DNA from: Chloroflexota bacterium
Lineage (GTDB): Bacteria; Chloroflexota; Anaerolineae; Promineifilales; Promineifilaceae
Reading direction: 5' to 3'
DNA: 64,000 bases
Assembly: GCA_017993775.1 (NCBI GenBank)
Contig: JAGOMA010000027.1
Coordinates: forward strand, 1 to 64,000
A model generated the notes under the pieces. That model worked only from the letters and a program-made list of their open reading frames with translations. It did no database searches and was not told the origin of the DNA. How positions within the stretch are numbered: position 1 is the first letter of the stretch; the number at the start of each line of letters is the position of its first letter. Positions 8,028 to 14,614 of the stretch are shown here, one piece after another. The position numbers and the translations under genes were made by a program.

Positions 8028-10250
8028 ATGATGACAGAAGAAACCCCTGGAACTACAGAACAACCGCAAACAACTACGTCCTGGTTGGCCGATACGGCCG
8101 TTACCCAGATCCACAACGCCTTCAGATTAGGCTGGTCGCTTGTGGAATTACGCAGCCGCGTGCAAATTGCCGCCCTGGACGACCCCAAACTGCCCCAAAT
8201 GGTCGATTCCAGTCGAACACGCGTTTTTTCCGACCCCCTCCAGATGGTTCAGGACGCAAACAACGGCCTGCGGCGTGCCAGCCAGATGCGCACCATATTC
8301 AACAGCATCGTCACCCTCCAACAATCCAGTTTCCCAACCCCTACCAACATCAGCCAAATCTATGACCCGCCGCCCCAAGCAGACCTGCCCTATCTTTACC
8401 CGCAAGATCCAACAGATCCGGATGCTCTGGATTACGCCAATTTTGGGATCGGCCCTCTGGAAACAGACGACAGCAACTTGTTTTGGTCCAATTTCCGCCT
8501 CTATGACGTGAGCCGTCGGGCATTAAACTGTCTGAATTTGCTGTTAAGCGATCCGCTGGACAATCTGGTTCCAGACCTGATCACCAAGCAGCAAAACCGG
8601 TTAATCCAAAAAATCAGCGATGTACTAAAGCCTGAATCCGATGCGAGTACGGCCGTGGAACCCGGTCTGGCCATCGATTCCTTAACCAGGGCAACCCTTC
8701 AGGCTTGTGTCGTTTACAAATCAACCAATCCGGCAGCATATTATTCGAAAACAGCAGCCGCCGAAAACGAAAGCCTGCCAGCACAAGAAACTGACATCGG
8801 CCACCGTGAGGCTATCGTGGCCCTCAGCGTTTTAAGCGCCAGACTGCTCCAGGCGTGGGATGGTTTTTTGCGCGAGCGTTTCACCGCATCGGGCGTCGGG
8901 GCAAAAAATTTAAACGCGCTGCTGGCCTACGAGGCCGGGCGTAATTTGGCCTCGATTTCCTGGAACACATCGGTCAATGCCGTTCGCTTAGAAAATCAGG
9001 CGGAACAAGACCAGAATGCCCACCAAAATTTATGCCAGATGTGGCAAGACACCTTCACCGACAGCGGCGTAACCCACGTCTTGCATCAAATTTCCGCCCT
9101 GAGCGCCGTTTTCGACGATGTGTACTACCGAACCCACGAAAAACCGGCAGCTTTTTCGACTGACAGTACATTGGACGATCTGCTTGTGCGCCCGGACCCA
9201 TCGCTGCCCAGCAATGTACTCCAGGCAGTGAAACAAAGCATCGAATATTGGCAGCGCACGGTGATCTGGTTAGGCGCCGAAGAAAAGCCGAACAATGCGG
9301 AATCGCGGAACATGGAAAAGCCAGAAATGAAGGTAGCCGATTGGCGGCGATTACGCGAGACGCTGATCGAGCAATCGGGCATCTGGTACAACCTCATGAC
9401 TGGCCAGCAAGATTTACGCGGATTCACTGTCGAAGGGATTGCTCAGGGGCTTATGGACGAGGCGATTGGCGATTTGCGGGGACTGGCGCAGCGCGATTTA
9501 CCGGCCGCTTTCCAACAAGCCAGCCAACAAATCGACGAAATGGCCCGTGATGTCGCTGAATTTGTGGCGTCGATCAGCGGCACGGCTACCAAAGTAGCGC
9601 AGGAGGGCATCAATCGTATTTTCGATTCTGTTCACCCGGTTTTTTGGGTGATTATCGGGATTAGCGCGGTGGTTGTGGTTGGGTTGGTGGGGTATGCCTT
9701 TGCCACAAACCAGACAGATGTATTGATCGGCGCGATGGCCAGCATGGGCACGGCCGTTGCCGGCATGTTCGGCATCAAACGCGGCAGCGACTCCAAAGAG
9801 GAAACCAAAAGTAACGTCGAAACTCAGATCGAAGACCAAAAAACCGTCAAGACCCAGGAAATGACCAACAAAACACAACAACTGCAAAACGCCATCAGCC
9901 ATGCACGCAGTGGTCTGGCCGGCACAGCCAGTTCGGCCCTGGGACAAGCTGGTAGTTTTCTGGTCGACGCCTACGAAAATGGCCTGCTGCGCATTCAAAT
10001 CGAACTTCAATCACTCAACCACAGCATCGCCGTCGCCCACCCGCTGGTAGAATTTTTCATCCGCAACAGCGATATAGAAAGCGACCTCGATTTCCTAACC
10101 AAAGTCATCTGGGACAAAGGCAGCCGTGAAGCGCAGCTGCGCAACGTGGTCACCGCCGCCTTTGGCCCAATTAGCATCCTGCTCGGTGCGCCCACCGAAA
10201 ACCGCGACGCCCCTCCACCCACCACCGGTCGCAGCGGCGAAAATTCATAA
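8028..10250 (+). CDS. Unrecognised 740-aa protein with one membrane anchor
   Basis: I do not recognise a family. The start ATG follows AAGGAG at a good distance. Residues 1-530 are soluble and largely helical, with a DP- and PPP-rich stretch near 105-135. A strong hydrophobic helix occupies about 537-559 (FWVIIGISAVVVVGLVGYAF) and a second, weaker Gly/Ala/Met-rich segment 564-583. A charged, Gln/Lys/Thr-rich stretch at 590-625 looks coiled-coil, then a further helical domain and a Pro/Thr tail. There is no signal peptide, so the N-terminal 530 residues may stay in the cytoplasm. It has no Walker, HTH or enzyme motif that I can see. It is followed by a 17-bp inverted repeat, then by the independently promoted ABC transporter leader, so functional linkage to the transporter is unproven. 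Confidence 0.85.
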   Translation: MMTEETPGTTEQPQTTTSWLADTAVTQIHNAFRLGWSLVELRSRVQIAALDDPKLPQMVDSSRTRVFSDPLQMVQDANNGLRRASQMRTIFNSIVTLQQSSFPTPTNISQIYDPPPQADLPYLYPQDPTDPDALDYANFGIGPLETDDSNLFWSNFRLYDVSRRALNCLNLLLSDPLDNLVPDLITKQQNRLIQKISDVLKPESDASTAVEPGLAIDSLTRATLQACVVYKSTNPAAYYSKTAAAENESLPAQETDIGHREAIVALSVLSARLLQAWDGFLRERFTASGVGAKNLNALLAYEAGRNLASISWNTSVNAVRLENQAEQDQNAHQNLCQMWQDTFTDSGVTHVLHQISALSAVFDDVYYRTHEKPAAFSTDSTLDDLLVRPDPSLPSNVLQAVKQSIEYWQRTVIWLGAEEKPNNAESRNMEKPEMKVADWRRLRETLIEQSGIWYNLMTGQQDLRGFTVEGIAQGLMDEAIGDLRGLAQRDLPAAFQQASQQIDEMARDVAEFVASISGTATKVAQEGINRIFDSVHPVFWVIIGISAVVVVGLVGYAFATNQTDVLIGAMASMGTAVAGMFGIKRGSDSKEETKSNVETQIEDQKTVKTQEMTNKTQQLQNAISHARSGLAGTASSALGQAGSFLVDAYENGLLRIQIELQSLNHSIAVAHPLVEFFIRNSDIESDLDFLTKVIWDKGSREAQLRNVVTAAFGPISILLGAPTENRDAPPPTTGRSGENS

Positions 10251-10272
10251 CTTTCCGCCCCCAATCAGACAT

Positions 10273-10314
10273 GGTGCGTGATGCGTGACAACAGAGTGTC
10301 ACGCATCACGCACC
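10273..10314. terminator. Perfect 17-bp inverted repeat downstream of the 740-aa gene
   Basis: The arm starting GGTGCGTGATGCG at 10273-10289 and its exact reverse complement at 10298-10314 are separated by AACAGAGT. It lies 22 bp after the stop codon. There is no T run, so it may be a 3' stabilising hairpin or a repeat rather than a classic intrinsic terminator. Confidence 0.6.
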
Positions 10315-10331
10315 AAAACAACACCCCCAGA

Positions 10332-10368
10332 CCCCAAAAACCATTAGATATTCCTCTAATTTTTGGGG
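10332..10368. promoter_or_regulatory. Inverted repeat abutting the -35 box, possible operator
   Basis: CCCCAAAA (10332-10339) plus ATTAGA (10343-10348) are mirrored by TCTAAT (10355-10360) plus TTTTGGGG (10361-10368), with a three-base bulge on the left and a six-base loop. The right arm ends two bases before the TTGACT box. That position suits a regulator-binding site, though a terminator remnant for the upstream gene is also possible. Confidence 0.5.
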
Positions 10369-10369
10369 G

Positions 10370-10398
10370 TTGACTTCCCCCTCATCATTTGTTATAGT
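10370..10398 (+). promoter_or_regulatory. Near-consensus sigma-70 promoter for the leader / ABC exporter
   Basis: TTGACT at 10370-10375 and TATAGT at 10393-10398 are exactly 17 bases apart, each one base from consensus. Transcription should start near 10405. It is the best promoter match I found in the window and drives the structured leader and, on read-through, the two ABC genes. Confidence 0.8.
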
Positions 10399-10447
10399 GC
10401 TTCCTGCATATTCATGCACATCTAATCTTGAAAGGAGTAAGGCGCAA

Positions 10448-10546
10448 ATGGGTAACACAATCAACAGCACCATCTACATCGTTCCCAGCGGTTTTGATAA
10501 AGCCGTGTTGTGCGCCGACGCACCCTGTCAGCTTGACATAAAGTAA
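10448..10546 (+). CDS. 32-codon leader peptide ORF
   Basis: ATG 10448 follows GAAAGGAG at good spacing and about 43 bases after the predicted transcription start. The peptide begins MGNTINSTIYIVPSGF and ends CQLDIK, stop TAA at 10544-10546. It lacks a signal peptide and any run of one amino acid, so it does not resemble amino-acid-starvation leaders. The 5' arm of the large leader hairpin falls within its last codons and the stop lies in the loop, so a translating or stalled ribosome would open that stem. It is more likely regulatory by translation than a functional protein. Confidence 0.55.
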   Translation: MGNTINSTIYIVPSGFDKAVLCADAPCQLDIK

Positions 10547-10633
10547 CATTTAGCAAGCGAACCAACAGGGTCACGGCGCAAATAAAAGCCCGTGGCCTTT
10601 TTTGTTTCTGCCGGTATCTTAGAAACCAGCAAA

Positions 10634-10660
10634 ACGCCACGGGACCCCGTGGCGTTTTTT
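10634..10660 (+). terminator. Leader terminator upstream of the ABC exporter genes
   Basis: ACGCCACGGG (10634-10643) and CCCGTGGCGT (10646-10655) form a perfect ten-pair, GC-rich stem followed by six T (10655-10660). It lies 178 bases before the first ABC start codon, so it must be overcome for transporter expression unless a second promoter exists. Confidence 0.8.
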
Positions 10661-10752
10661 GTTGCTGCGGATGAAGGTGACACAAGGTGTCAGGAATGAA
10701 TCGTAACCTATACAGATAGCTGCGATCGTGAAGTAACAAGACTTTTTATACC

Positions 10753-10825
10753 GACTGACAAAGCGCGACGCACAACCCTTTGCCAGTCAGCAGAAATCAA
10801 GCACAAGAAAACTCACTGATTTCTG
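10753..10825 (+). promoter_or_regulatory. Two further hairpins directly before the ABC start
   Basis: GACTGaCAAAG and CTTTGcCAGTC form a stem from about 10753 to 10788. CAGAAATCA (10791-10799) and TGATTTCTG (10817-10825) form a perfect nine-pair stem that ends where the weak ribosome site AAGG begins, 12 bases before ATG 10838. They may set translation of the first transporter gene. Confidence 0.5.
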
Positions 10826-10837
10826 CAAGGCACAACA

Positions 10838-12721
10838 ATGGATAACTTAGACTACGACCTCAAACAAATTGTTACCCAAAAACGGCTGGTGGGTTTATGG
10901 CGCATCCTGGCCGGATACCGCTGGCTCTACTTGCTGGCGATTGTCTCCATCGGCTTGTCGGCGCTGATGCGCTCGACCATCTATTACACATTGGGCTACT
11001 ACGTAGATAACGTTTTGTCGTCTGATGGCAGTATTCTTCGCCAGAGCCTGCTGGTAGGCGCGGCCATTGTCGGGCTGGCGCTGCTGCAAGGGGCGTTGAC
11101 GTTTGTAAGCGGCCGTTCGGCCGCCAAAACGGCCGAGGGTATTACCCGCCGCCTGCGCAACTATCTCTATGACCACATTCAGCGCCTCAGCTTCACCTAT
11201 CACGACAACATGCAGACCGGTGAACTGTTGCAGCGGTCAACCTCGGATGTGGATGCGCTGCGCCGGTTGTTTGCCGAACAACTAAACGGCATCGGGAATA
11301 TTACGCTGCTGTTTCTGGTGAACTTTGTCGCCCTGCTGATGCTAAATGTGCGCCTGGCCCTGTATTCTGTGGTGGTCATCCCGTTCATCATTGGCGTCTC
11401 GCTTTACTTCTTCAAAAAAGTAGGCGAGGTTTATGAAACGTATCAGGAGCAAGAGGCCACCCTATCGAACCGCTTGCAAGAAAATCTGAGCGGCGTGCGT
11501 GTGGTGAAAGCGTTTGCGCGGCAGAGCTACGAAATCGACATGTTCGAGGTCGATAATCAGGAAAAATATCAGCGCGGCAAGCGGTTGATCTTTATGCACG
11601 CTTCGTTTTGGCCGGTAACGGACATTATGTGCGGTATACAAATGTTGGCCGGGTTCTTCCTGGGCGCGCGCATGGCCATTAACGGCATCATCACGCCGGG
11701 TGAGTATCTGACTTACGCCGGGCTGGTGGTACTGATTATCTGGCCGATTCGCAACCTGGGGCGATTAATTACCCAGATGTCTACGGGACTTGTTTCTTTT
11801 GACCGGGTCCGCGACATTATTCGTGAAGACCGGGAGCCATTGGACGCCGGCACTTACATCCCCGAAAACGGGCTGCGCGGCGCGGTGCAGTTTAAGAATC
11901 TACACTTCGCGTACGACAAAGAGACGCCGGTGCTGCACGACATTAGCTTCGATGTGGAGCCAGGGCAGGTGATCGCTCTGTTGGGGTCTACCGGTTCGGG
12001 CAAAACGTCGCTGGTGAATTTGTTGCCTCGTTTTTACGATTACACAGCGGGCAGCCTGACGCTAGACGGCGTTGAACTGCGCGAGTATCCGCGGATCTGG
12101 CTGCGGCGGCAGATTGGCATTGTGCAGCAAGAGCCGTTCTTGTTTTCGCGTTCCATCCGGGAAAACATCACTTACGGCGTGGGTCGAACGGTGTCGGATG
12201 CGGAAGTGGAAACGGCCGCGCGCGCAGCCGCCATCCATGACGTCATCCTTTCATTCCCCAACGGTTATGAAACGCTGGTGGGCGAACGCGGGGTGACACT
12301 TTCTGGCGGGCAGAAGCAGCGGGTGACCATTGCCCGTACGCTGTTGAAGAATCCGCGTATTCTGATTATGGACGACGCCACCTCGTCGGTGGACACGGAA
12401 ACTGAGGCTTCGATCCGGGCGGCGCTGCAAGACCTAATGGCTACGCGAACCACCTTTGTGATCGCGCACCGGATTCAGAGTGTGATGGATGCGGACTTGA
12501 TTTTGGTGCTGGATAACGGCCGTATCATCCAACGCGGCACACACACCGAACTCCTGGACCAGCCCGGCACGTACCAACAAATTTACAACCTGCAGGCGCG
12601 CATCGAAGCCGAACTGGAAAAAGAAATCGCTTCTGTCGGCTCGGGCAGTAATGGCAATGGAAACGGGCAACATAACGGCCGTTTCCAGGAAAAAATAACG
12701 ACAACAATCGCAACAAACTAA
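10838..12721 (+). CDS. Heterodimeric ABC exporter subunit with degenerate Walker B (Asp513)
   Basis: A 627-residue half-transporter. The membrane domain (about residues 20-310) is followed by an ATPase with Walker A GSTGSGKTS (383-391), signature LSGGQ (488-492) and H-loop His544. Walker B reads ILIMDDATS: the catalytic Glu is replaced by Asp513. In heterodimeric exporters such as TM287/288 and BmrCD, the subunit with this Asp forms the non-hydrolysing ATP site, while its canonical LSGGQ completes the partner's active site. The next gene has exactly the complementary changes. The C-terminus has a Gly/Asn-rich tail (GSNGNGNGQHNGRF). It lies behind the structured leader. Multidrug or lipid export is the family role; the substrate is not known. 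Confidence 0.93.
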   Translation: MDNLDYDLKQIVTQKRLVGLWRILAGYRWLYLLAIVSIGLSALMRSTIYYTLGYYVDNVLSSDGSILRQSLLVGAAIVGLALLQGALTFVSGRSAAKTAEGITRRLRNYLYDHIQRLSFTYHDNMQTGELLQRSTSDVDALRRLFAEQLNGIGNITLLFLVNFVALLMLNVRLALYSVVVIPFIIGVSLYFFKKVGEVYETYQEQEATLSNRLQENLSGVRVVKAFARQSYEIDMFEVDNQEKYQRGKRLIFMHASFWPVTDIMCGIQMLAGFFLGARMAINGIITPGEYLTYAGLVVLIIWPIRNLGRLITQMSTGLVSFDRVRDIIREDREPLDAGTYIPENGLRGAVQFKNLHFAYDKETPVLHDISFDVEPGQVIALLGSTGSGKTSLVNLLPRFYDYTAGSLTLDGVELREYPRIWLRRQIGIVQQEPFLFSRSIRENITYGVGRTVSDAEVETAARAAAIHDVILSFPNGYETLVGERGVTLSGGQKQRVTIARTLLKNPRILIMDDATSSVDTETEASIRAALQDLMATRTTFVIAHRIQSVMDADLILVLDNGRIIQRGTHTELLDQPGTYQQIYNLQARIEAELEKEIASVGSGSNGNGNGQHNGRFQEKITTTIATN

Positions 12722-12784: not shown

Positions 12785-14614
12785 ATGTCTGATGAATACC
12801 GTTTTGAAGAAGAAGAATTCACGACTCAATTTAATGGGCAAACCGTCCTGCGCATCATCAAACAAGGGCTGCACCATTGGCCCCTGATGCTCTTTTTCCT
12901 GGTGAGCATCGCCACGGTGTCGGCGCTGGACAGTTACTTTACTTACCTCAGCAAACGGATCATGGATGAAGGCATTATCGCCGGCAACGCCGACATCCTG
13001 ACACGCATCATCCTGCAATATGGCGCGCTGATGCTTTTGCAGGCTGTCATGGTATTTGGCTTCATCACCTGCGCCGGGATGCTCAGCGAACGTGTACAGT
13101 ACGACCTGCGCAAAACCATGTTCGGCCGTTTGCAAGAACTGTCGCTGTCCTACTTCGACCGCACGCCGGTCGGTTGGTTAATGTCTCGCGTCACGTCCGA
13201 CACCCAGCGCGTAGGCGATCTCGTCTCCTGGGGCTTTTTGGATGTAACCTGGGGCTTCACCAATATCACCACCGCATTGGTGTTCATGTTCTTCATCAGT
13301 TGGCGCATGGCCCTCATCGTCCTCATCATGATTCCGGTGTTGATTGTGGTGGCTACCATCTTTAAAAAGAAAATTCTGGTGGAGTACCGCAAAGTACGCA
13401 AGCTAAACTCCAAAATCACCGGCTCCTACAACGAGAACATCACCGGGGTGCGCGTGGTCAAATCGCTGCGACGCGAAGAAGAAAATCTGCGTGAATTCGG
13501 CGAGTTGAGCGGCGACATGTACAAAGCCGGCTACCGGGCGGCGTGGTTATCCGCGCTGTTCCTGCCGACTGTTTTGCTCATCACTTCGCTGGGCGTGGGC
13601 AGTGTGATTGTGTACGGCGGCTACCAGTTCCAACTGGGCGGCATGACCATTGGCGGCATCCAGGCCTTCATCTCCTACATCTTTTTCATGATGTGGCCGG
13701 TGCAAGAAATGGCCCGCGTGTACGCCGAAATGCAGCAGTCGATTGCTTCCGGCGAGCGAATCTTCTCGTTGATCGACGCCGTGCCGGAGATCCAAAATCA
13801 ACCTGGCGCGGGCGATCCCGGTTCGATTCGGGGCGACATTGTTTTCGACAACGTGGACTTTTACTACGAAGCCGAAAAGCCGGTGCTGACAAACTTCAAC
13901 CTGACGATCCAGCAGGGCGAAACGATTGCTCTGGTTGGACCAACGGGCGCGGGTAAATCGACACTGGTGAACCTGATCTGCCGTTTTTATGAACCGAAGA
14001 ACGGCCGTATCCTCATCGCCGGACATAATTATCGTGACCTGACACTACATGCCATCCATTCGCGGATCGGCATGGTGCTGCAAACGCCGCACCTGTTTTC
14101 GGGCACGGTGATGGAGAATTTGCGTTACGGCCGTCTTGAAGCCACCGACGACGAAGTGATCGCCGCCGCGCAAATGGCCGGCGCCGACACCTTCATCAGC
14201 AAACTGGAAAAGGGCTACCATACGCAGGTCGGCGAAGGCGGCGTGCTGCTGTCCGTAGGGCAGAAACAGCTGATTAGTCTGGCGCGCGCCGTCCTGGCCG
14301 AACCCGACATCTTCATCATGGACGAGGCAACCAGCTCGGTAGACACGCTGACGGAAGCGCTTATCCAGCAAGGCATGGACCGGCTCATGGAAGGGCGCAC
14401 CAGCTTCGTGATCGCCCACCGGCTGTCCACCATCAAACGGGCCGACCGTATTCTGGTGATCGAAAATGGCGGTGTGTCGGAAATGGGCACCCACGCAGAA
14501 CTCATCCGCAAGCGCGGCCATTACTATGACCTGTATACCAAACAATTCCGTGACGAAATGGAACAGGCTTACGCAGCCCAAAAAGTAGAAACGGAGTTGG
14601 CTCTGGCAGCCTAA
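12785..14614 (+). CDS. Heterodimeric ABC exporter subunit with intact Walker B and degenerate signature (LSVGQ)
   Basis: A 609-residue half-transporter, partner of the preceding gene. It has six membrane helices, Walker A GPTGAGKST (385-393), Walker B IFIMDEATSSVDT with catalytic Glu514, and H-loop His545. The ABC signature is LSVGQ (489-493) rather than LSGGQ. Together the pair therefore makes one canonical site (this Walker A/B with the partner's LSGGQ) and one degenerate site (partner Asp513 with this LSVGQ), as known for asymmetric exporters. The start ATG lies 63 bases after the first gene, in one operon, and a strong terminator follows. Confidence 0.93.
   Translation: MSDEYRFEEEEFTTQFNGQTVLRIIKQGLHHWPLMLFFLVSIATVSALDSYFTYLSKRIMDEGIIAGNADILTRIILQYGALMLLQAVMVFGFITCAGMLSERVQYDLRKTMFGRLQELSLSYFDRTPVGWLMSRVTSDTQRVGDLVSWGFLDVTWGFTNITTALVFMFFISWRMALIVLIMIPVLIVVATIFKKKILVEYRKVRKLNSKITGSYNENITGVRVVKSLRREEENLREFGELSGDMYKAGYRAAWLSALFLPTVLLITSLGVGSVIVYGGYQFQLGGMTIGGIQAFISYIFFMMWPVQEMARVYAEMQQSIASGERIFSLIDAVPEIQNQPGAGDPGSIRGDIVFDNVDFYYEAEKPVLTNFNLTIQQGETIALVGPTGAGKSTLVNLICRFYEPKNGRILIAGHNYRDLTLHAIHSRIGMVLQTPHLFSGTVMENLRYGRLEATDDEVIAAAQMAGADTFISKLEKGYHTQVGEGGVLLSVGQKQLISLARAVLAEPDIFIMDEATSSVDTLTEALIQQGMDRLMEGRTSFVIAHRLSTIKRADRILVIENGGVSEMGTHAELIRKRGHYYDLYTKQFRDEMEQAYAAQKVETELALAA

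Follow-up and report, generated by a model that had tools for sequence, protein, structure and literature searches.

The 64,000-nucleotide window analysed here, part of a 6.0-Mb Chloroflexota MAG (G000), carries ahead of a pair of ABC exporter genes a leader that we read, at a probability of roughly 75%, as a cis-acting, ribosome-mediated transcription attenuator. The leader (10,370-10,660) comprises a promoter, an upstream ORF (uORF) of 32 codons with a strong Shine-Dalgarno sequence and, one after the other, two intrinsic terminators, T1 and T2. Six segments form a chain of mutually exclusive pairings, 0:1, 1:2, 2:3 (T1), 3:4 and 4:5 (T2). In our reading the OFF state is 2:3 with 4:5 and the ON state is 1:2 with 3:4. 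A uORF with its ribosome-binding site is thus combined with an antiterminator and a terminator that exclude each other, the choice between them following ribosome position in the computed folds. Judged from sequence and modelling, the leader is very probably an attenuator of this architecture.

Results

Anatomy of the leader

The coordinates of the leader and of the genes behind it are given in Table 1. A preliminary description of this DNA had noted a translated 32-codon ORF with its 3' end inside a large hairpin, three segments of one complementary set, and a terminator with six T. The ORF is present with its Shine-Dalgarno sequence and was recovered in relatives, and the hairpin (10,505-10,583), which is the 1:2 antiterminator of T1, scores z = -3.9; in it the uORF 3' end pairs with the T1 5' arm over 10,511-10,582. 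The complementary set CCCGTGGC / GCCACGGG / CCCGTGGC was found at 10,589-10,596, 10,636-10,643 and 10,646-10,653, followed by six T. Inspection of 9,900-11,100 together with the sequence scans thus bears out all the elements noted earlier, their coordinates shifting slightly. There are, however, two terminators: besides T2, a complete terminator with a T run of its own (TTTTTT), T1, uses the first CCCGTGGC as its 3' arm and had been overlooked as a separate one. For T1, T2 and the 1:2 hairpin alike, 0/200 dinucleotide shuffles were as good. Being palindromic and flanked by A/T, T2 could act both ways.

Table 1. Leader elements and downstream genes in the window
Feature	Position	Strand	Evidence or remark
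Sigma-70-type promoter TTGACT-N17-TATAGT	10370..10398	+	10/12 match; hexamers of this type also at this site in orthologs
Shine-Dalgarno AAAGGAG and segment 0 (GGCGCAA, 10441-10447)	10432..10447	+	segment 0 complementary to segment 1
uORF, 32 codons (ATG 10,448) and TAA (to 10,546), peptide MGNTINSTIYIVPSGFDKAVLCADAPCQLDIK	10448..10546	+	uORF at same place in relatives
Segment 1: uORF 3' end, 5' arm of T1 antiterminator	10510..10529	+	1:2 duplex energy
Segment 2: T1 5' arm, also antiterminator 3' arm	10565..10581	+	pairing analyses
Segment 3: T1 3' arm; alternative partner is segment 4	10588..10597	+	covariation
Intrinsic terminator T1 (2:3) with TTTTTT	10565..10603	+	z = -4.5; compensatory changes in 7/9 pairs
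Spacer, able to form a small hairpin within the 3:4 helix	10604..10635	+	window z = -1.6
Segment 4: T2 5' arm; predicted ON-state partner of segment 3	10636..10643	+	98.9% paired, 5/8 pairs compensatory
Segment 5: T2 3' arm	10646..10653	+	complementary set, hairpin score
Intrinsic terminator T2 (4:5) with T run	10631..10660	+	z = -5.1
First half-transporter of heterodimeric ABC exporter	10838..12721	+	Walker B MDDATS
Second half-transporter	12785..14614	+	Walker B MDEATS, signature LSVGQ

GAAAGGAG precedes the start codon of the uORF, and GGCGCAA, between the Shine-Dalgarno sequence and the start codon, pairs with TGCGCC in the uORF 3' end. In the window the 1:2 duplex reaches -24.3 kcal/mol against a shuffled mean of -14.2 (0/100 as good) and the 0:1 duplex -17.4 kcal/mol against -11.1 (4/100 as good); folded alone, the 0:1 region is no stabler than its shuffles (z = 0.16). 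The attenuation logic of the earlier reading is supported; what it lacked was segment 0 and the linkage by which the two terminators would be controlled as a chain.

The promoter, previously called near-perfect, agrees with the sigma-70 consensus at 10 of 12 positions, a score that by itself is within chance (0.7 such sites expected in shuffles), and relatives have hexamers of like type at the corresponding position upstream of the uORF. As to a transcript starting only after 10,660, a sequence scan of 10,200-10,900 detected a single promoter-like site, which lies upstream of the uORF, in relatives as well. RNA polymerase presumably starts near 10,405.

Around the leader we noticed several further repeats. 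The gene upstream ends at 10,250 and is followed by a separate hairpin of its own at 10,273-10,313, formed by the long, perfectly matched inverted repeat GGTGCGTGATGCGTGACA..TGTCACGCATCACGCACC. Locus L195 has a similar repeat, GCATCACGC, and the element may be dispersed in this genome. An imperfect inverted repeat at 10334-10369 (CCCCAAAAA..TTAGA/TCTAA..TTTTTGGGG) abuts the -35 box and is a possible operator, its right half being shared with a relative of the same genus. Right ahead of the exporter start codon lies another hairpin (10791-10827, GCAGAAATCA..TGATTTCTGC), not seen in locus L006.

The leader is conserved in relatives

Orthologs of the first ABC gene were collected from 40 related genomes and 80 public contigs. 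Their upstream regions repeat the order promoter, Shine-Dalgarno, uORF, T1, T2, ABC gene, so that the homologous leaders proposed to precede orthologous ABC pairs are found in dozens of relatives. About 66 leaders yielded, at the corresponding position, a uORF of 22-39 codons with a Shine-Dalgarno sequence. Conservation of the ORF and stems, on which the preliminary description had made its reading depend, holds in these dozens of relatives, the stems being kept with compensatory changes. The nearest relative, with an ABC protein at 99% identity, is a Chloroflexota bacterium MAG (JAKQCM010000386.1). Among Anaerolineales T1 is present in most copies and the second element is short or different, and several orthologs had no recognisable leader in the upstream regions inspected.

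A whole-leader MAFFT alignment misplaced segment 1 and T2, hence the covariance model (R1) was restricted to T1 and T2 with the variable spacer trimmed. The covariance search that had been proposed detected the leader, with E-values that are rough, in 33 of 52 genomes of the family (E <= 0.001), in 44/396 genomes of the class (E <= 1e-4) and in 16 of 400 genomes of the phylum, one of these outside the class Anaerolineae; the counts are lower bounds because of the stricter filters in large searches and because of divergence. A match just upstream of the gene was seen in 40 of the 67 public loci closest to the window gene (L083-L149; E up to 1).

Covariation of the stems

In an 11-sequence alignment, 92.4% of the cells of the T1 and T2 stems are paired, with two-sided changes in 11 of 18 pairs, and sliding the partner by 1-3 columns reduced pairing to 34-54%. 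The 3:4 helix in the same alignment is paired in 98.9% of cells with two-sided changes in 5/8 pairs (slid controls, 31-44%). We gave most weight to the two-sided changes and the slid controls, since relatedness inflates shuffle controls. Segment 3 is complemented better by segment 4 than by segment 2, divergent families included. Segment 4 resembles segment 2, and an ancestral duplication could account for part of the 3:4 complementarity.

For the 0:1 and 1:2 pairings, single-leader scores do not always beat shuffles (at or below 5% of shuffles in 39/67 leaders for 0:1 and in 36/67 for 1:2), hence we relied on pooled tests in which partners were swapped between leaders. With fixed windows in 54 non-redundant leaders, true partners averaged -16.3 kcal/mol and swapped partners -12.9 for 0:1 (z = -9.0), and -19.0 and -16.2 kcal/mol for 1:2 (z = -8.1); in neither test were any of 20,000 permutations as low. 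When swaps were limited to the same clade the values were z = -5.8 for 0:1 and z = -5.2 for 1:2 (0/10,000), a signal that comes mostly from the window's own family; the 1:2 test alone was not significant inside the Caldilineaceae, f2 and GNAT clades. Segments 0 and 1 change together, as GACACA with TGTGTC (L049), AACGG with CCGTT (L050), ACCGGT with ACCGGT (Caldilineaceae) and GCGCACTC with GAGTGCGC (Anaerolineales).

A hairpin inside the uORF, considered as an RNA polymerase pause site, was rejected as weak (mean z -0.95; beyond 5% of shuffles in 9/54). Some relatives have a strong hairpin in the spacer that separates T1 from T2, and many have a weak one or none.

Genes behind the leader

In the window the leader precedes a neighbouring pair of half-transporters, of which one has degenerate ATPase residues, as in heterodimeric ABC exporters of the TM287/288 and BmrCD type; by its sequence the pair looks drug-pump-like. 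The same leader stands before orthologous ABC pairs in relatives, before tandem GNAT acetyltransferases in another family (f29), before HAD and GNAT pairs and an MFS-like protein, and before PA4780-like RIO1 kinase genes (L078, L163, L170 and L172), which include the only match outside the class. It also precedes ABC-F genes: the protein at L183 lies above the NCBIfam 'ribosomal protection-like ABC-F' cut-off, and further ABC-F genes follow leaders L169 and L074, where contig or stretch ends limit the sequence and the cut-off was not reached or the protein was unscored. The same T1 design, with uORFs rich in cognate codons (Phe, Tyr, Leu), precedes pheS, aroH, tyrS and leuS, and the uORF before aspS is asparagine-rich.

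Versions of the amino-acid type in relatives (L058, L060, L063, L082, L177 and L178) stand before pheS, aroH, aspS and leuS (two copies). G000 itself seems to carry more leaders, at C95:117208-117293, C12:131130-131204, C69:57889-57933 and C25:11948-12009 (L179/L189, L193, L168 and L192); among these copies are a Leu-rich uORF before leuS, a Tyr-containing one before tyrS and one before a HAD and GNAT pair. A weak match in G000 precedes a DrrA-like ABC ATPase.

Ribosome position and the proposed mechanism

The leader was folded with a 31-nt ribosome footprint masked codon by codon. With the P site at codons 7-17 the RNA folded mostly into the antiterminator (14.5-14.8 antiterminator pairs and about 0 of T1 at codons 8-9), codons 18-20 gave a mixture, and codons 22-32 gave T1 fully (10.8-10.9 T1 pairs and 0 of the antiterminator at codons 22-27). 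The suggestion that ribosome stalling could switch the terminator thus agrees with the masked folds, ON at codons 7-17 and OFF at 22-32. Masking codons 2-4 favours T1, so that very early stalls may not induce. With the ribosome at the uORF stop codon the model again prefers 1:2. The ribosome-free model also prefers 1:2 over 0:1, making the basal OFF state without translation uncertain.

The equilibrium folds favour 4:5 over 3:4, by about 4 kcal/mol when the module is folded alone and by about 6 in the full leader, hence any anti-T2 effect must act kinetically. For transcripts ending at 10,645-10,652 the most stable structure is helix 3:4 with the spacer (-23.4 kcal/mol), which loses only after segment 5 has emerged. 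T2 is strong, so the ON state needs it disarmed, and kinetic capture by 3:4 fits; on this modelling we slightly favour such a relay over its absence.

In the mechanism we propose, an undelayed ribosome on the uORF would cover segment 1, T1 would form and transcription would stop, with read-through of T1 caught by T2. A ribosome delayed at about codons 7-17 would leave segment 1 free to pair with segment 2, and T1 would be lost; the freed segment 3 could then capture segment 4 as it emerges, pre-empting T2 and allowing transcription of the exporter genes. If the uORF were left untranslated, segment 0, at the ribosome-binding site, could bind segment 1 and so promote termination. The likeliest inducer would be a translation inhibitor counteracted by the exporter, or by the ABC-F or GNAT products of relatives. 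We lean towards ribosome inhibitors as the signal because the leader accompanies ABC-F, GNAT and exporter genes and because the uORF has no amino-acid codon run. Termination efficiency, anti-T2 kinetics, the transcription start and the inducer are what we infer for this leader. Transcription attenuation of the peptide- or drug-induced type, as first proposed, is supported by the conserved layout, the compensatory changes and the dependence of folding on ribosome position.

Constraint on the uORF and alternative explanations

Across leaders the segment-1 core occurs in each of the three uORF frames, and in a genome of the same genus a 1-base deletion in the uORF changes the C terminus to CAPTHPVSLT and leaves every stem intact. 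The constraint there is on RNA and not on peptide, and for the window family a peptide-arrest motif was rejected as the conserved element. We saw no known drug-arrest motif in the window uORF peptide. Many uORFs of L064-L081 and L101-L143 end in P-S-R-S-A-P-V-x-R.

A switch by nascent-peptide arrest, in which a specific uORF peptide stalls the ribosome together with a drug or exporter substrate, draws on the endings ..SRSAPxxR or ..RAP of the uORFs of many relatives and on ..LPLRLRG.. in two leaders of one genus (L051, L052), which we take to resemble the R-x-R macrolide arrest motif of erm leaders. The three-frame core and the natural frameshift speak against it, as does the folding, which needs a delay ahead of segment 1 and not within it, and we consider it unlikely; it would fit the attenuator model if it were what stalls the ribosome early in the uORF. 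Sensing of one aminoacyl-tRNA shortage by the uORF, as in trp-type attenuators, is something the design can do, since the same T1 design precedes pheS (..RFFSFFF..), aroH (..YFSFYFYF..), tyrS and leuS (..QLLLGHLLLG..). The window uORF has no amino-acid codon run, no residue dominates codons 2-20 in 54 resistance-type leaders (Ala 10.7%, Ile 9.5%), and the genes behind them are exporters, ABC-F and GNATs rather than genes of biosynthesis or tRNA charging, making this reading quite improbable for the window.

T1 and T2 might instead provide ordinary fail-safe termination, for a transcript from upstream or for a small RNA, with the exporter transcribed from a promoter after 10,660, and the palindromic, A/T-flanked T2 would suit bidirectional use. 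Yet the upstream gene has its own hairpin, the sole promoter-like site found in 10,200-10,900 precedes the uORF, T1 and T2 track the uORF and promoter despite differing neighbour genes, and the covariation of 0:1, 1:2 and 3:4 would be left unexplained. We regard fail-safe termination as very improbable and retain the ribosome-mediated attenuator.

Discussion

The preliminary description recognised no described family of this leader. Rfam gave none at gathering and E-value thresholds (the best sub-threshold hit, ncS54, scored 31.8 against 43 bits and is a terminator-like match), and literature searches, covering open-licence papers and hence weak evidence, found no description of attenuation or leader peptides in Chloroflexota or Anaerolineae. 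The leader apparently represents an undescribed, separate family with linked double terminators. More tentatively, at a little under even odds, we propose a phylum-specific family in which one uORF, two serial terminators and a six-segment relay (0:1, 1:2, 2:3, 3:4, 4:5) serve as a shared ribosome-stress sensor of a resistance regulon (ABC exporters, ABC-F, GNAT, RIO kinase) and turn to amino-acid sensing by change of the uORF codons. If so, this would be the first antibiotic-type attenuator family described in Chloroflexota, so far as the literature searches show, and a single RNA design common to several classes of resistance genes and to amino-acid genes. Searching for the leader could then give a catalogue of inducible intrinsic resistance genes in a phylum that is largely uncultured, and how one ribosome would rule two successive terminators is a testable claim.

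We file the leader as a ribosome-mediated attenuator outside the bmrB family because a terminator inside the ORF is absent here, T1 beginning 18 nt past the uORF stop. We know of no homology between the leader of bmrB and that of the window, which are set apart by description and by phylum. The nearest functional parallel is the bmrB-bmrCD system of B. subtilis, with the same leader logic and a heterodimeric multidrug ABC exporter: a leader peptide gene, an exclusive antiterminator and terminator and a predicted anti-antiterminator precede bmrCD, which is induced by 50S inhibitors via the translating ribosome (PMC4191407). There, a single terminator lies inside the 53-codon bmrB (PMC4191407), whereas the window has a 32-codon uORF and two linked terminators outside it. 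The patAB genes of S. pneumoniae, also an ABC exporter pair, are preceded by a predicted terminator, antiterminator and anti-antiterminator; theirs is a single terminator in another phylum, against two in the window, and the signal and the role of the ribosome were not investigated there (PMC4319486).

More than one terminator or attenuator per leader occurs in the rimP-leader, which has no tie to antibiotic genes (PMC2965389), and in mgtCBR, which uses two ORFs (PMC3641672); neither is described there as having a single uORF that rules two terminators by a 2:3/3:4 relay (PMC2965389, PMC3641672). The ribosome is likewise the drug sensor in the leaders of vmlR (PMC9226507), msrD (PMC10314930) and a B. 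subtilis tylosin-resistance gene (PMC6851288), which serve ABC-F and methyltransferase genes, and the window family also precedes ABC-F genes. Those leaders are described there as individual Firmicute sequences and not as one design across resistance classes. With attenuators of the trp, leu and phe type the window leader shares the logic of protector (0:1), antiterminator (1:2) and terminator (2:3); it differs from them in a uORF free of an amino-acid codon run and in a second terminator predicted to be chained to the first via 3:4.
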